Below, in pieces: positions 38,141 through 45,754 of a stretch of DNA of 64,000 bases. The stretch covers positions 223,820 through 287,819 of the forward strand of contig JAKSVU010000001.1 of the NCBI GenBank assembly GCA_024413465.1, written 5' to 3'. This DNA is from Alphaproteobacteria bacterium (GTDB lineage Bacteria; Pseudomonadota; Alphaproteobacteria; CAAGCB01; CAG-977). The notes beneath the pieces were generated by a model. That model was not told where the DNA came from. It made no database searches and saw nothing but the letters and a program-made list of their open reading frames with translations. Numbering within the stretch: position 1 is the first letter of the stretch; each line of letters starts with the position of its first letter. Position numbers and translations under genes: made by a program.

Positions 38141-38488
38141 AACCAGATAATCGGATAACTGCTGCATATTTTTATGTTGAGGAAAGTCCGGGCTTCACAG
38201 AAACACGATACCGGATAACATCCGGCTAAGGAAACTTAAGGGAAAGCGCAACAGAAAACAAACCGCTTCTGTATGTTATACAAGCAAGGTTGAAAAGGTG
38301 TGGCAAGAGCACACCACTTTTTCGGTAACGAAGAAGGTACGGCAAGCCCTATCGGAAGCAAGACCAAGAATGATAAATAAAGGAATGTTTCTGTTCCTGT
38401 CAGAAGGTGGGTCGCTATATTCGTTTGGTAACAAACGGTACAGATGAATAGTTATCAATACATAACCCGGCTTATAGATTATCTGGTT
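38141..38488 (+). ncRNA. rnpB: RNase P RNA, bacterial type A
   Basis: This is the catalytic RNA that matures tRNA 5' ends. The ends AACCAGATAAT and ATTATCTGGTT form the P1 stem. Universally conserved segments are present: GAGGAAAGTCCGGGCT near 38178, GGAAAGCGCAACAGAAA near 38240, GGCAAG, GGTAACAAACGG and AACCCGGCTTATA near 38464. The length of about 348 nt is slightly short. The 3' end overlaps the stop of the convergent uridine-kinase-like gene by 2 nt. Confidence 0.97.
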
Positions 38489-39233
38489 AATTTAGGATTT
38501 CATTAATTACGTTTAATAAATTTTCTTCAGAAACATCGCCATTTATAACGATATCTGCTTCATTTTTCAAAGGCTTTATATATTTTACATAATTTGAAAA
38601 TACATCTGCAAACAACAACTTCATTGATTCTGTTTGTTCAACACACCTAGATTTTTCACGAGCAAACCAACGATCTCTTTGAATTTTTTCATCAATATCA
38701 ATAAATATATTTAAATCAAATTTATCTTTCACATCTGGATGCAACATAAATAAACCTTCAGCTAAAATATAATCAGCCCTATTGACTAAAATGCTATCTT
38801 CAACAACTTTACAAGTTCCATTAATTTTATACTCTGGAATAAGAACAGAAGTTTCTGTTTTTAAACGTTCCAATACGTTCGCAAGTTTGTCTAAGTGGTA
38901 AGCTTCTGGAACATTTACAGAAAAACCTCCATTTATGATCATATTTTCAAAACTTCCATATTTTATAACTTGCTCAGATCTATCTTTGTAAAAATTATCA
39001 GAATTTATTACGCAAATTTCTTTCTGAGGATGATGAATTTTTAACATTTCCTCTAAACAGGCTGTAATAGTTGACTTTCCACTTGCACTTGCACCTGTAA
39101 TTCCAATAAAACAAGGACGCTTACCTATTACACATCGTATATATTCTATTTTTTCAAAGAAACTGTCATTTAAACGCAAAACTACACTTGGATATTTAAT
39201 AGCTATAGCCCTAAACTTTTCATGAAGCAACAT
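38487..39233 (-). CDS. Uridine kinase-like P-loop phosphotransferase
   Basis: The 248-aa protein belongs to the uridine kinase/phosphoribulokinase family. The P-loop GITGASASGKST is near residue 43, CVINSDNFYKDR follows with the conserved Asp, then YILAEGLFMLH (Walker B-like Glu) and RDWFAR-like RDRWFAREK lid residues. Such enzymes phosphorylate uridine, cytidine or a related small molecule. The N-terminal 40 residues are an extension beyond typical Udk. It is convergent with rnpB and divergent from the mra operon. Confidence 0.8.
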   Translation of the reverse strand: MLLHEKFRAIAIKYPSVVLRLNDSFFEKIEYIRCVIGKRPCFIGITGASASGKSTITACLEEMLKIHHPQKEICVINSDNFYKDRSEQVIKYGSFENMIINGGFSVNVPEAYHLDKLANVLERLKTETSVLIPEYKINGTCKVVEDSILVNRADYILAEGLFMLHPDVKDKFDLNIFIDIDEKIQRDRWFAREKSRCVEQTESMKLLFADVFSNYVKYIKPLKNEADIVINGDVSEENLLNVINEILN

Positions 39234-39340: not shown

Positions 39341-39406
39341 TACCATATTCATCCAAATAATACCATAAAATACCATTGACTCCCATTAAATACCATGATA
39401 TACCAT
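39341..39406 (-). promoter_or_regulatory. 10-bp-periodic operator array, candidate MraZ boxes
   Basis: TACCAT occurs at 39341, 39361, 39371, 39391 and 39401, with TCCCAT at 39381 and a degenerate unit ATCCAA at 39351: seven units at exactly 10-bp spacing. On the other strand these read ATGGTA/ATGGGA. E. coli MraZ binds TGGGN direct repeats separated by 5 nt, the same 10-bp phase. The array overlaps the predicted mraZ promoter, so self-repression by MraZ is the likely function. Confidence 0.75.
39376..39404 (+). promoter_or_regulatory. Promoter of the dcw cluster
   Basis: TTGACT at 39376-39381, 17-nt spacer and TATACC at 39399-39404, buried in the repeat array and about 50 nt before mraZ. A GGCAAA-T-TTTGCC inverted repeat (39416-39428) follows in the leader. 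Confidence 0.55.
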
Positions 39407-39452
39407 AATTAAGAGGGCAAATTTTGCCTAGTACTGCAGAAAGGTATTTTTT

Positions 39453-39923
39453 ATGTCAAAAGCAGAAAGGCGATACACACTTTTTATGGATACCATCCTT
39501 AATAAAGTTGATGCAAAGGGAAGAGTTTCTATCCCTGCTGATTATCGTGCACTTCTTGAACAAAAAAATACTGAGTTAACAGCTTTTCCATCTTTTAAAC
39601 ATCCTTGCATTGAATGTTTTACATCTGAACTAATGGAAAAAATGGCAAATGATCTAGAAAAAAACTTTAATCCTTTTTCTGAAGAAGAGGATGATTTTTC
39701 TAATTCTATATTTGCTCAAGCAAAAGAATTTGCTTTTGATTCAACTGGAAGAATTATTCTAACAGAAAAACTTTTATCTCATGCTAAAATAACAGATAAA
39801 GCTCTTTTCGTAGGGAAAGGAAAAACTTTTCAGATTTGGAATCCTGATTTATATGAGATTGAAAATCAAAAAAGAATTACTCGTATACAACACTTAAATT
39901 TCAATATAAAACACGAGGAATAA
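39453..39923 (+). CDS. mraZ: Transcriptional regulator MraZ
   Basis: The 156-aa protein has two AbrB-like MraZ repeats. The first has NKVDAKGRVSIPADYRALL, and the second has EFAFDSTGRIILTEKLLSHA followed by KALFVGKGKTFQIW. In other bacteria MraZ forms a ring that binds repeats in front of its own operon and represses it. The start at 39453 has AAAGG 8 nt upstream; an ATG 12 codons in (MDTILNKVD) would match the shorter family start. It is the first gene of the dcw cluster and is preceded by the periodic array. Confidence 0.95.
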   Translation: MSKAERRYTLFMDTILNKVDAKGRVSIPADYRALLEQKNTELTAFPSFKHPCIECFTSELMEKMANDLEKNFNPFSEEEDDFSNSIFAQAKEFAFDSTGRIILTEKLLSHAKITDKALFVGKGKTFQIWNPDLYEIENQKRITRIQHLNFNIKHEE

Positions 39924-39927
39924 CACT

Positions 39928-40869
39928 ATGAGCAAACATATTCCCGTTTTATTAGATGAAGTTATAAAAAATTTAAAACCTATTGATGGTGGTGTTTACA
40001 TTGATGGAACATTTGGTGCTGGTGGGTATACTTCAGCAATTCTTAATACTGCGAATTGTACTGTCTATGCAATTGATCGAGATCCTGATGCCATAAATGA
40101 AGGACAAGAGCTTGTAGATAAATACAATGGTCGATTACATTTACTAGAAGGAACCTTTGGAAATATGGTTTCGTTAGTTAAATCCTTTGGTATTAATTAT
40201 GTTGATGGAGTTGTACTAGATATAGGTGTTTCATCAATGCAAATTGACAGAGCTGAGAGAGGTTTTTCTTTTCAAAAAGATGCTAAATTAGATATGAGAA
40301 TGAGTAAGAGCGGAGAATCAGCAACCGACATTCTCAATAAATATAACGAAAAAGAAATTGCTGATATTATATATAAATATGGAGAAGAACGTTTTTCTAG
40401 ACGAATTGCAAGAGAAATTATTGAGTATAGAAAAACAAAAAAAATAGAAACAACTTACGAACTAGCAAACTTAGTAAGGAAATGTATTCCTTGCAAACAT
40501 AATGATATTGACCCAGCTACTCGAACTTTTCAGGCTTTACGAATCTTCGTAAATGATGAGTTGGGGCAGCTACAATCTGGGCTCGAAGCAGCCGAAGTGC
40601 TGCTAAAACCAGGCGCAAGAATGGCAGTGGTTTCATTCCATTCATTAGAAGACAGAATCGTCAAAGCCTTTATAAGTGAACGAAGTGGAAAAGTATCAAA
40701 TCCTTCCAGATATTTTCCAATGCAGCAAAAATCCAATACTTCACTTATATCAATTACAAAAAAACCGATAACTCCTTCTGATTTGGAAACAAAAGCAAAT
40801 CCACGTGCAAGATCTTCACGTCTTCGTGTTGCCCAAAAAGCAGAAGGAGAAAAACCATGGAAAAAATAA
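39928..40869 (+). CDS. rsmH: 16S rRNA m4C1402 methyltransferase RsmH
   Basis: The 313-aa SAM-dependent enzyme methylates N4 of C1402 in 16S rRNA. Family motifs are HIPVLLDEVI at the start, YIDGTFGAGGYTSAIL (SAM-binding), VLDIGVSSMQIDRAERGFSF, ATRTFQALRIFVNDEL and the C-terminal NPRARSSRLRVA. An AGGA site precedes the ATG. It starts 4 nt after mraZ and its end overlaps ftsL by 13 nt. Confidence 0.97.
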   Translation: MSKHIPVLLDEVIKNLKPIDGGVYIDGTFGAGGYTSAILNTANCTVYAIDRDPDAINEGQELVDKYNGRLHLLEGTFGNMVSLVKSFGINYVDGVVLDIGVSSMQIDRAERGFSFQKDAKLDMRMSKSGESATDILNKYNEKEIADIIYKYGEERFSRRIAREIIEYRKTKKIETTYELANLVRKCIPCKHNDIDPATRTFQALRIFVNDELGQLQSGLEAAEVLLKPGARMAVVSFHSLEDRIVKAFISERSGKVSNPSRYFPMQQKSNTSLISITKKPITPSDLETKANPRARSSRLRVAQKAEGEKPWKK

Positions 40870-42913: not shown

Positions 42914-45754
42914 GTGAATTTAAAAAATTTATTTCAAAATGTAAAAATTATATTACCACAAGAAGATTTAGAAATATCTGGTATAACAACAGATTCAAGA
43001 AAAGTTGAACCAGGGTATCTTTTTATCGCAACACCTGGTGTAAAAATCAACGGAACTGATTTTATTGAACAAGCCTATGAAAAAGGTGCAATTGCATGTC
43101 TTATTCCTGAAGACTACATTCCCAAAACAAATAAAATGATTTTTTTAAAATCATCAAACATTCGTAAAGATACTGCACTTTTAGCTGCAAATTTTTATAA
43201 CAAGCAACCTGAAAAAATTGTTGCAGTTACAGGAACAAATGGAAAAACATCAACTGTAAACTATTGCAGGCAAATATGGGAAAATTTAAAAAAGGATGCA
43301 GCATCAATTGGAACACTGGGAATCATTACAAAAGATTTTTCACAATACGGTTCAATGACAACTCCTGATAGCATAACGTTACATCAGGAAATTAATACTT
43401 TAACTGATAACGGAATAAAAAACCTGGCTTTTGAAGCATCTTCTCATGGTATTGAACAAAACAGAATAGATGGAATACGAATAACCGCAGCTGGTTTTAC
43501 AAATATTACAAGAGATCACTTAGATTATCATAAGACCATGGAAAATTATCTAAATGCTAAATTAGGATTATTCAATAGAGAATTATCTTCAAATACAGTT
43601 GTTTTAAATTCAGATATACCAGAATTCAGTCAAATTAAAAATTATTGTCTTTCTAAAAAACTGAAAATCATTGATTATGGTTTTCAGGCTTCATCTATAA
43701 AAATATTAAGTTCTATTCCTGAATCTAGCGGCCAAAAAGTAAAACTTGAAATTTTTGATCAAACGTATTTGATTAAATTTCCACTTGTTGGGCATTTTCA
43801 ATTAATGAATGCCTTGTGTTCGCTCGGTTTATGTATTGCTACGATGGAAAGTGATGAAAAAATATCAGATTATGTAAAACAATTAGAAGTTTTAAAAGGC
43901 ATCCCTGGACGAATGGAATTAGTCGGGTCAAGAAACAATGCTAATATTTACGTTGATTATGCACATACACCTGATGCATTAGAAAATGTTTTAAAAGCGT
44001 TAAGACCACACACTACAAAAAAACTGCATGTCGTATTTGGTTGTGGTGGAGATCGTGATAGAGGGAAACGCCCTCAAATGGGAGCAATATGTCAAAAACT
44101 TGCTGATGTTATCTATGTAACAGATGATAATCCAAGATCTGAAGAACCTTTTGAAATAAGAGCCTCAATTCTTCCTTCTTGTCCTGATGCATTTAATATT
44201 GGAGATCGAGCTTTAGCTATAAAAACGGCTATAAAAAATTTAGAAGATGGAGACACACTAGTTATTGCAGGAAAAGGGCATGAAATCGGTCAAATGATAA
44301 AAGGAATAAATCATCCATTCGACGATAGAGTTGAAGCGAGGAAAGCTATAATTGAAGTAGAAAAACCACTTTGGCAATCATCTGTAATTGCAGAAGCTAC
44401 CTCTGGAAGAGCAGGTTCAAACTTTGATATTTACGGAATTTCAATTGATACAAGAACAATAAAAAAAGGAGAACTTTATATTGCTTTAATTGGCGAAAAG
44501 GTAAATGGACATGCTTTTATTCAACAAGCTTTTGAGAAAGGAGCTTGTGGTGCCTTAGTTTCTACTATTCCAGAAGGCATAGATACAAAAAAATTAATTG
44601 TAGTTCAAGACACATTACAAGCCTTGAAAGATTTAGCAAAAGAAGCTAGGAAACGGACAAAAGCAAAGATTATTGGTATAACTGGAAGCTCTGGAAAAAC
44701 TAGTACCAAAGAAATGCTTCGAAGTGCTCTTTCTTGTGTAGGACTAACACATTATACATTAGGGAATTTAAATAATAATATTGGTGTTCCATTGACTTTG
44801 TCAAGAATGCCACAAAATTGTGATTTTGCAATTTTAGAAATGGGTATAAATCATTTTGGAGAAATGACAGAATTAACTGATCTTGTAAGGCCTGATTTTG
44901 TTTTAATAACAATGATTGGAAATGCACATTGTGAATATTTTAAACAACCTGAAGAAACAGCTTTAGCAAAAGCTGAAATATTTACATCGATGAATAAAAA
45001 TGGAGCTGTACTTCTAAATGCTGATAATGAATTATTTTCTACACTTGAAAAGGAAGCTAAAAAAAATAATATAAAAAATATATATGCATTTGGCTCTAAT
45101 GCTGAAAATTATGTATCTTTGCTTCACTTATCTCATTTACAAAATAAGAATGAAATTACTATCAGAATAAACAATTCTACATATTCGTACCAATTAAACA
45201 TCCCCGGGAAACATCAAGTTTTAAATAGCTTAGGTGTTGTGGGAATTTTATCATTGTTAAATGTTGACATGCAAACTTGTTTACAAGGATTAAGCTTATT
45301 AAAGCCATCAGAAGGAAGAGGTAAAGCTCTCATTTTAAGATGTCCTCAAAAGAAGGAAAACACCTATACATTAATTGACGATGCTTATAATGCTAATCCA
45401 GAATCAGTAAAGGCAGGTTTAAATGTTTTGGGAGAGATGTCGACAAATGGTAAAAAAATTGCCGTATTAGCCGATATGCTAGAACTAGGTGAAAAATCGA
45501 TTGCTTTACATTTATCTATCAAAAATTATCTTTTATCTAACAAGGTAGACTACTTATTTGCAGTTGGAGAAGCAATGGGGAAATTATTTGATGATATCAA
45601 ACTACCTGGAGCAAAAACAAAAACATCACTTGAAATGGTAAAAAACTTGTCTAAAATAATTGGAAAAGATGATATTGTTTATGTAAAAGGTTCAAACTCA
45701 ATGAAACTATCAGCATTGATTAAAGAATTAAAGGAATTAAGTAATGCTTTATAA
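42914..45754 (+). CDS. murE-murF: MurE-MurF fusion: two Mur ligases in one polypeptide
   Basis: This 946-aa protein joins two complete Mur ligases without an intervening stop. Residues about 1-482 are MurE: ISGITTDSRKVEPGYLFIA, P-loop VAVTGTNGKTSTV near 105, and DDNPR near 405, the motif that selects meso-diaminopimelate. Residues about 490-946 are MurF: IYGISIDTRTIKKGELYIAL, P-loop IGITGSSGKTSTKEM near 586, and DDAYNANPESVKAGL. The fusion would add DAP and then D-Ala-D-Ala to UDP-MurNAc-dipeptide in one enzyme. The start is GTG 42914 with AAGGA 8 nt upstream. Its end overlaps mraY by 11 nt. MurE-MurF fusions are known in a few other bacteria, such as Bordetella. Confidence 0.95.
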   Translation: MNLKNLFQNVKIILPQEDLEISGITTDSRKVEPGYLFIATPGVKINGTDFIEQAYEKGAIACLIPEDYIPKTNKMIFLKSSNIRKDTALLAANFYNKQPEKIVAVTGTNGKTSTVNYCRQIWENLKKDAASIGTLGIITKDFSQYGSMTTPDSITLHQEINTLTDNGIKNLAFEASSHGIEQNRIDGIRITAAGFTNITRDHLDYHKTMENYLNAKLGLFNRELSSNTVVLNSDIPEFSQIKNYCLSKKLKIIDYGFQASSIKILSSIPESSGQKVKLEIFDQTYLIKFPLVGHFQLMNALCSLGLCIATMESDEKISDYVKQLEVLKGIPGRMELVGSRNNANIYVDYAHTPDALENVLKALRPHTTKKLHVVFGCGGDRDRGKRPQMGAICQKLADVIYVTDDNPRSEEPFEIRASILPSCPDAFNIGDRALAIKTAIKNLEDGDTLVIAGKGHEIGQMIKGINHPFDDRVEARKAIIEVEKPLWQSSVIAEATSGRAGSNFDIYGISIDTRTIKKGELYIALIGEKVNGHAFIQQAFEKGACGALVSTIPEGIDTKKLIVVQDTLQALKDLAKEARKRTKAKIIGITGSSGKTSTKEMLRSALSCVGLTHYTLGNLNNNIGVPLTLSRMPQNCDFAILEMGINHFGEMTELTDLVRPDFVLITMIGNAHCEYFKQPEETALAKAEIFTSMNKNGAVLLNADNELFSTLEKEAKKNNIKNIYAFGSNAENYVSLLHLSHLQNKNEITIRINNSTYSYQLNIPGKHQVLNSLGVVGILSLLNVDMQTCLQGLSLLKPSEGRGKALILRCPQKKENTYTLIDDAYNANPESVKAGLNVLGEMSTNGKKIAVLADMLELGEKSIALHLSIKNYLLSNKVDYLFAVGEAMGKLFDDIKLPGAKTKTSLEMVKNLSKIIGKDDIVYVKGSNSMKLSALIKELKELSNAL

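Follow-up and report, generated by a model that had tools for sequence, protein, structure and literature searches.

In many bacteria the first gene of the division and cell-wall cluster is that for MraZ. In the 64-kb stretch of DNA analysed here (the window), from an uncultured alphaproteobacterium whose named close relatives are mostly MAGs from animal gut and rumen, a long series of short repeats lies across the predicted promoter of this gene. Which protein does the series serve, and what, if anything, is special about its sequence, its orientation and its length?

A phased array over the predicted mraZ promoter

Positions 39341-39406 read TACCATattc ATCCAAataa TACCATaaaa TACCATtgac TCCCATtaaa TACCATgata TACCAT, that is, seven hexamers at exact 10-bp steps, of which five are perfect TACCAT, one is TCCCAT and one is a degenerate ATCCAA. 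A preliminary description had reported seven 10-bp-periodic units upstream of mraZ, and the statistics bear this out. Scored as seven TMCCAT units in a 10-bp register, the array reaches 39 of 42; this is the maximum of the window and starts exactly at 39341, against at most 26 elsewhere in the window and a maximum of 28 in 40 dinucleotide-preserving shuffles of it. The period is sharply defined, with a six-unit score of 33 at 10 bp and of 18-21 at periods 6-9 and 11-14. Exact TACCATNNNNTACCAT pairs occur twice in the window where 0.01 are expected, and perfect three-box matches are found genome-wide only at the mraZ array. The score relative to the shuffles and the excess of TACCATNNNNTACCAT pairs rule out a chance origin. 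A recent tandem duplication is also ruled out, since the boxes agree while the 4-bp spacers between them differ: CCA, which is TGG on the other strand, is invariant in all seven units.

The boxes are placed on the minus strand, where TACCAT reads ATGGTA. Box 1 (TACCAT, 39341..39346) is an upstream satellite. Box 2 (39351..39356) is the degenerate unit and retains the CCA core only, which leaves an effective array of six good boxes spread over seven positions, with five of the six in one contiguous run. Box 3 (TACCAT, 39361..39366) lies just upstream of a core of four, which the relatives also support. The core is made up of box 4 (TACCAT, 39371..39376), whose final T is the first base of the -35, box 5 (39381..39386), which is TCCCAT, the consensus of the class, box 6 (TACCAT, 39391..39396), whose final T opens the TGn of the extended -10, and box 7 (TACCAT, 39401..39406), which overlaps the -10. 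The predicted -35, TTGACT (39376..39381, plus strand), has TTGA(C) in the same register in most relatives. The predicted extended -10, TGaTATACC (39396..39404, plus strand), combines TG at 39396-39397 with TATACC at 39399-39404, at a spacing of 17 bp from the -35, and TGnTATnCC recurs in relatives. Both predicted elements lie inside the array, as had been proposed at the outset.

The array ends 47 bp before the start of mraZ. Just past the expected start site is a palindrome, GGCAAATTTTGCC (39416..39428, plus strand), which is conserved in the family. The leader (39416-39447) presents a conserved GGCAAAWTTTGCC palindrome and then another small hairpin, in which the family shows compensatory changes; a search of the window leader against Rfam matched no known RNA.

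A probable inverted MraZ operator in Alphaproteobacteria

The gene behind the array (39453..39923, plus strand) encodes an intact MraZ of 156 aa and is the first of the dcw cluster. It is followed by mraW/rsmH (39928..40869, plus strand), an ftsL-like ORF, ftsI and murE-murF, the genes after mraZ being named from the translations of their ORFs. A single ORF of 946 aa at 42914-45754 reads as a MurE-MurF fusion. Two PF02381 stretches above cut-off correspond to the two half-domains of the MraZ family, and the DxKGR and DxxGR motifs (R24 and R100) are kept, as they are in all 27 proteins compared. The AlphaFold model (mean pLDDT 86) has the AbrB-like fold of MraZ. Its 16 matches in the PDB at E <= 0.001 are all MraZ, with TM (query) of 0.61-0.74, and include two promoter complexes, both of M. 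genitalium: 9r4j, and 9sz7, which is titled '4 box promoter'.

The operator of E. coli MraZ, as described by Eraso et al. in 2014, reportedly consists of TGGGN repeats. Upstream of E. coli mraZ we read GTGGGAaatt GTGGGGcaaa GTGGGAataa on the coding strand. Two later papers state that the MraZ of E. coli binds repeats at its own promoter and thereby represses it (PMC7761207, PMC8475190, citing Eraso 2014). The window array resembles the E. coli site: both lie immediately before mraZ, the head gene of the dcw cluster, and both are direct repeats with a GTGG core and a 10-bp step. However, E. coli has three copies, on the coding strand, beyond the -10 and across the start site, whereas the window has seven units on the other strand, over and upstream of the -35 and -10, with ATGG(G/T)A in place of GTGGGN. 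The opposite orientation noted in the preliminary description is real. In Burkholderia cenocepacia four 7-nt repeats with 3-nt spacers give the same 10-bp period, and a fragment with these repeats is bound by MraZ in EMSA (PMC7761207), although, like those of E. coli, they are found past the -10 and cover the start site. In mollicutes direct-repeat boxes are bound by oligomeric MraZ of the same fold (9r4j, 9sz7), but the box is of a different sequence, AAAGTG[T/G]; the MraZ regulon of M. genitalium is a single operon (PMC8475190). In the literature searched, the only MraZ sites described are those of E. coli, Burkholderia and mollicutes; B. subtilis and Corynebacterium are cited. Within this limited literature no paper on alphaproteobacterial MraZ boxes was found, and an earlier description may exist.

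The window array, then, has neither the strand nor the position, downstream of the -10, of the E. coli and Burkholderia boxes. These two features characterise the examples described so far and do not define MraZ operators, so the mismatch does not exclude one here; orientation and position together mark a sub-variant of such an operator.

Is this sub-variant particular to the species? We compared 109 non-redundant alphaproteobacterial mraZ upstream regions, calling an array significant at a shuffle P<=0.01. A significant 10-bp array of the TCCCAT type in reverse orientation is present in 106 of them, and a significant forward array in none of the 109. The regions that fall short of significance are L097, L110 and L173, and the last of these leans forward. 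L173 (genome G023) stands apart from the class pattern, with a divergent mraZ and a possible forward GTGGGG array that is not significant. Among 42 Pseudomonadota from other classes, E. coli included, boxes read GTGGG on the coding strand; forward scores higher at 39 loci and reverse at one, with two ties. At these 42 loci significance is reached by the forward array only in 20, by both in one and by neither in 21, which makes the forward orientation no more than a trend at roughly half of these loci. With 106 of 109 regions reversed, the reverse orientation is a trait of the Alphaproteobacteria as a class and not of this species.

The groups sampled include SAR11, Rickettsiales, Caedibacter, Rhizobium and Rhodospirillales. 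Typically, four boxes with the consensus TCCCAT are threaded through the promoter at exact 10-bp steps, with TTGAC of the -35 between boxes 1 and 2 and the extended -10, TGnTATnCC, across boxes 3-4. SAR11 retains some three boxes, which lie on the -10 and beyond it. The relatives, then, do have 10-bp-phased arrays at mraZ, but TACCAT is a minority form among these and the boxes further upstream are not strictly phased.

Across these arrays the box columns are conserved and the spacers are not. Because the boxes overlap the promoter so strongly, some of this column conservation could be that of the -35 and -10; boxes 1-3 of the window, and many boxes of the relatives, fall outside both elements. 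We also searched the genomes of 61 relatives with a strict three-box pattern (MCCAT-N5-MCCAT-N5-MCCAT) and with its reversal as a control. The strict pattern matched in 30 of the 61; in 29 genomes the match is at mraZ, and only four places elsewhere have one. The control gave no match in the same genomes. Strict arrays are found in none of seven genomes lacking a detectable MraZ (hypergeometric P ~0.008, several genomes being incomplete), although this is a weak test of co-occurrence, confounded by that incompleteness.

Two other owners of the array have to be considered. Another regulator of the dcw cluster, e.g. CtrA, CenR or an unknown factor, could sit at mraZ: there is a CenR ChIP signal upstream of R. 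sphaeroides mraZ, without a CenR motif (PMC9275681), and a CtrA motif is listed for S. meliloti mraZ (PMC3616915). However, a phased direct repeat with a TGGG/GTGG core at 10 bp is what is known as the MraZ site of E. coli, the motif is unlike that of CtrA (TAA-N7-TTA type), and strict arrays hardly occur away from mraZ and were not found in the genomes where MraZ is missing. We regard a different regulator as highly improbable. The second candidate owner is a kinase-like gene with the P-loop GASASGKST (38487-39233, minus strand), which diverges from mraZ and has the intergenic region in common with it. About 108 bp separate the left end of the array from the start of this ORF, which is read from the opposite strand, and the upstream units might regulate this gene, or both genes. 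Against this, conservation of the array follows mraZ, and we give this reading little credence. The array is, very probably, the autoregulatory operator of MraZ and controls the mraZ cluster; going by its sequence, it would be an MraZ operator in an inverted and promoter-embedded form.

Box variants, array length and mode of action

Seven units, TGGTA in place of TGGGA and the opposite orientation had together been suggested to form a separate type of MraZ box, matched to an oligomeric ring. The analysis does not support a type that belongs to this organism alone. The orientation is class-wide, as set out above, and in a matrix of 309 alphaproteobacterial units CCA is conserved at 97-100%, the last base is T in 90%, and position 2 is C in 86% and A in 10%; TACCAT itself accounts for 28 of the 309. 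In the same frame boxes from outside the class end in C (GTGGG vs ATGGG), and position 2, the third G of TGGG, varies in beta- and gamma-type boxes as well. As this position varies both inside and outside the class, TACCAT counts as a variant that the TCCCAT (ATGGGA) box tolerates. Nor is the window alone in this change, for four TACCAT boxes are present in L046. A box type matched to a ring finds no support here.

Where does the variant occur? An A at position 2 is commoner at low GC, the correlation being moderate (Spearman -0.32, P 0.002, n=94). It is enriched in core box 4, at 33 of 68 loci compared with 10-11 of 68 for the other boxes, and there TACCAT changes the -10 from TATCCC to TATACC, a better -10. 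TACCAT recurs in AT-richer genomes and is favoured in box 4, where the -10 improves. Given the moderate correlation with GC and the enrichment in the box that overlaps the -10, we reject a new specificity. Because TACCAT is a minority box, its affinity for MraZ may be lower.

The length of the window array lies at the top of the range but is not unique. Six good boxes in a seven-unit register are equalled only by L024 and L025. In exact TMCCAT copies near the core the window ties with L012 at six, the latter having about seven units that include a 12-bp step. Upstream boxes are carried by the family members L008, L009, L010, L011 and L012, and in L008-L011 they lie about 22 bp from the core and are not strictly in phase. 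Extra upstream boxes are therefore a tendency of the family, and strict phasing of all seven is not.

We propose that successive ATGGGA/ATGGTA boxes would be contacted by neighbouring subunits of one MraZ oligomer, on one face of the DNA and with one box per helical turn. As the four core boxes are interleaved with the -35 and the extended -10, bound MraZ would exclude RNA polymerase and so lower transcription of mraZ-mraW-ftsL-ftsI-murEF. We infer binding to the boxes, and repression by occlusion of the promoter, from the sequence and its known counterparts. The three upstream units, one of them degenerate, lengthen the in-phase array; they may raise avidity or make up in part for TACCAT boxes that are weaker.

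This last role has a serious competitor, which concerns boxes 1-3 and leaves autoregulation by MraZ as the main explanation. The operator may use the four-box core only, with the three upstream units as non-functional drift in an AT-rich intergenic region. Conservation across the class concerns the core, unit 2 is degenerate and the upstream boxes of relatives are out of strict phase, yet boxes 1 and 3 match TACCAT perfectly and keep the exact register, and the upstream boxes of L008-L012 suggest selection for extra boxes. A core-only operator is plausible, if somewhat the weaker of the possibilities. A more ambitious and rather unlikely scenario is that the Alphaproteobacteria inverted the operator and moved it into the -35 and extended -10, exchanging a block at the start site for competition with sigma, and that the seven in-phase units of this clade bind more MraZ, or a second oligomer, for steeper autoregulation.

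Long leaders and arrays away from mraZ

From a class-wide inverted operator follows the prediction of an MraZ site for nearly all the Alphaproteobacteria examined, SAR11 and Rickettsiales included. Such an operator also offers a clean test: does repression depend on the orientation and the position of the operator?

One application of these predictions is to long leaders. In R. sphaeroides the mapped start of mraZ is 268 nt upstream, giving a 268-nt 5' UTR, and a long mraZ leader with a terminator is reported for the Rhodobacteraceae (PMC5089854). Four loci of one family in our sample (f23: L152, L153, L156 and L160) have MraZ-type boxes about 305-345 bp upstream of mraZ. Their leaders are long and, like the one reported for UpsM, contain a strong terminator-like hairpin; an Rfam search of these leaders found no known RNA. 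In L153 and L160 the array is about 305 bp upstream, which puts the predicted start near 270 nt, close to the 268 nt of R. sphaeroides. The f23 leaders may correspond to that of R. sphaeroides. The f23 arrays predict that MraZ controls the promoter of the UpsM sRNA, and the UpsM/dcw promoter of R. sphaeroides is likewise predicted to be MraZ-controlled.

Candidates for a wider regulon were rejected. Of the best other hits in the genome, L147 lies inside a coding sequence, as does a match in a relative (G024:C46). Another of these hits, L148 (G000:C76, about 1501-1560), has five TGGGA/TGGTA boxes at 10-bp steps before a Fic-domain gene, and one of its units is a TTGACT -35. Relatives of the Fic gene in other genomes (L193-L196) carry their own, differing repeats of about 10 bp (TCGGATAAAA, TTGGGTA), so L148 is more likely a Fic-linked operator than a member of the MraZ regulon. 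These repeats suggest a separate periodic operator tied to this Fic subfamily.
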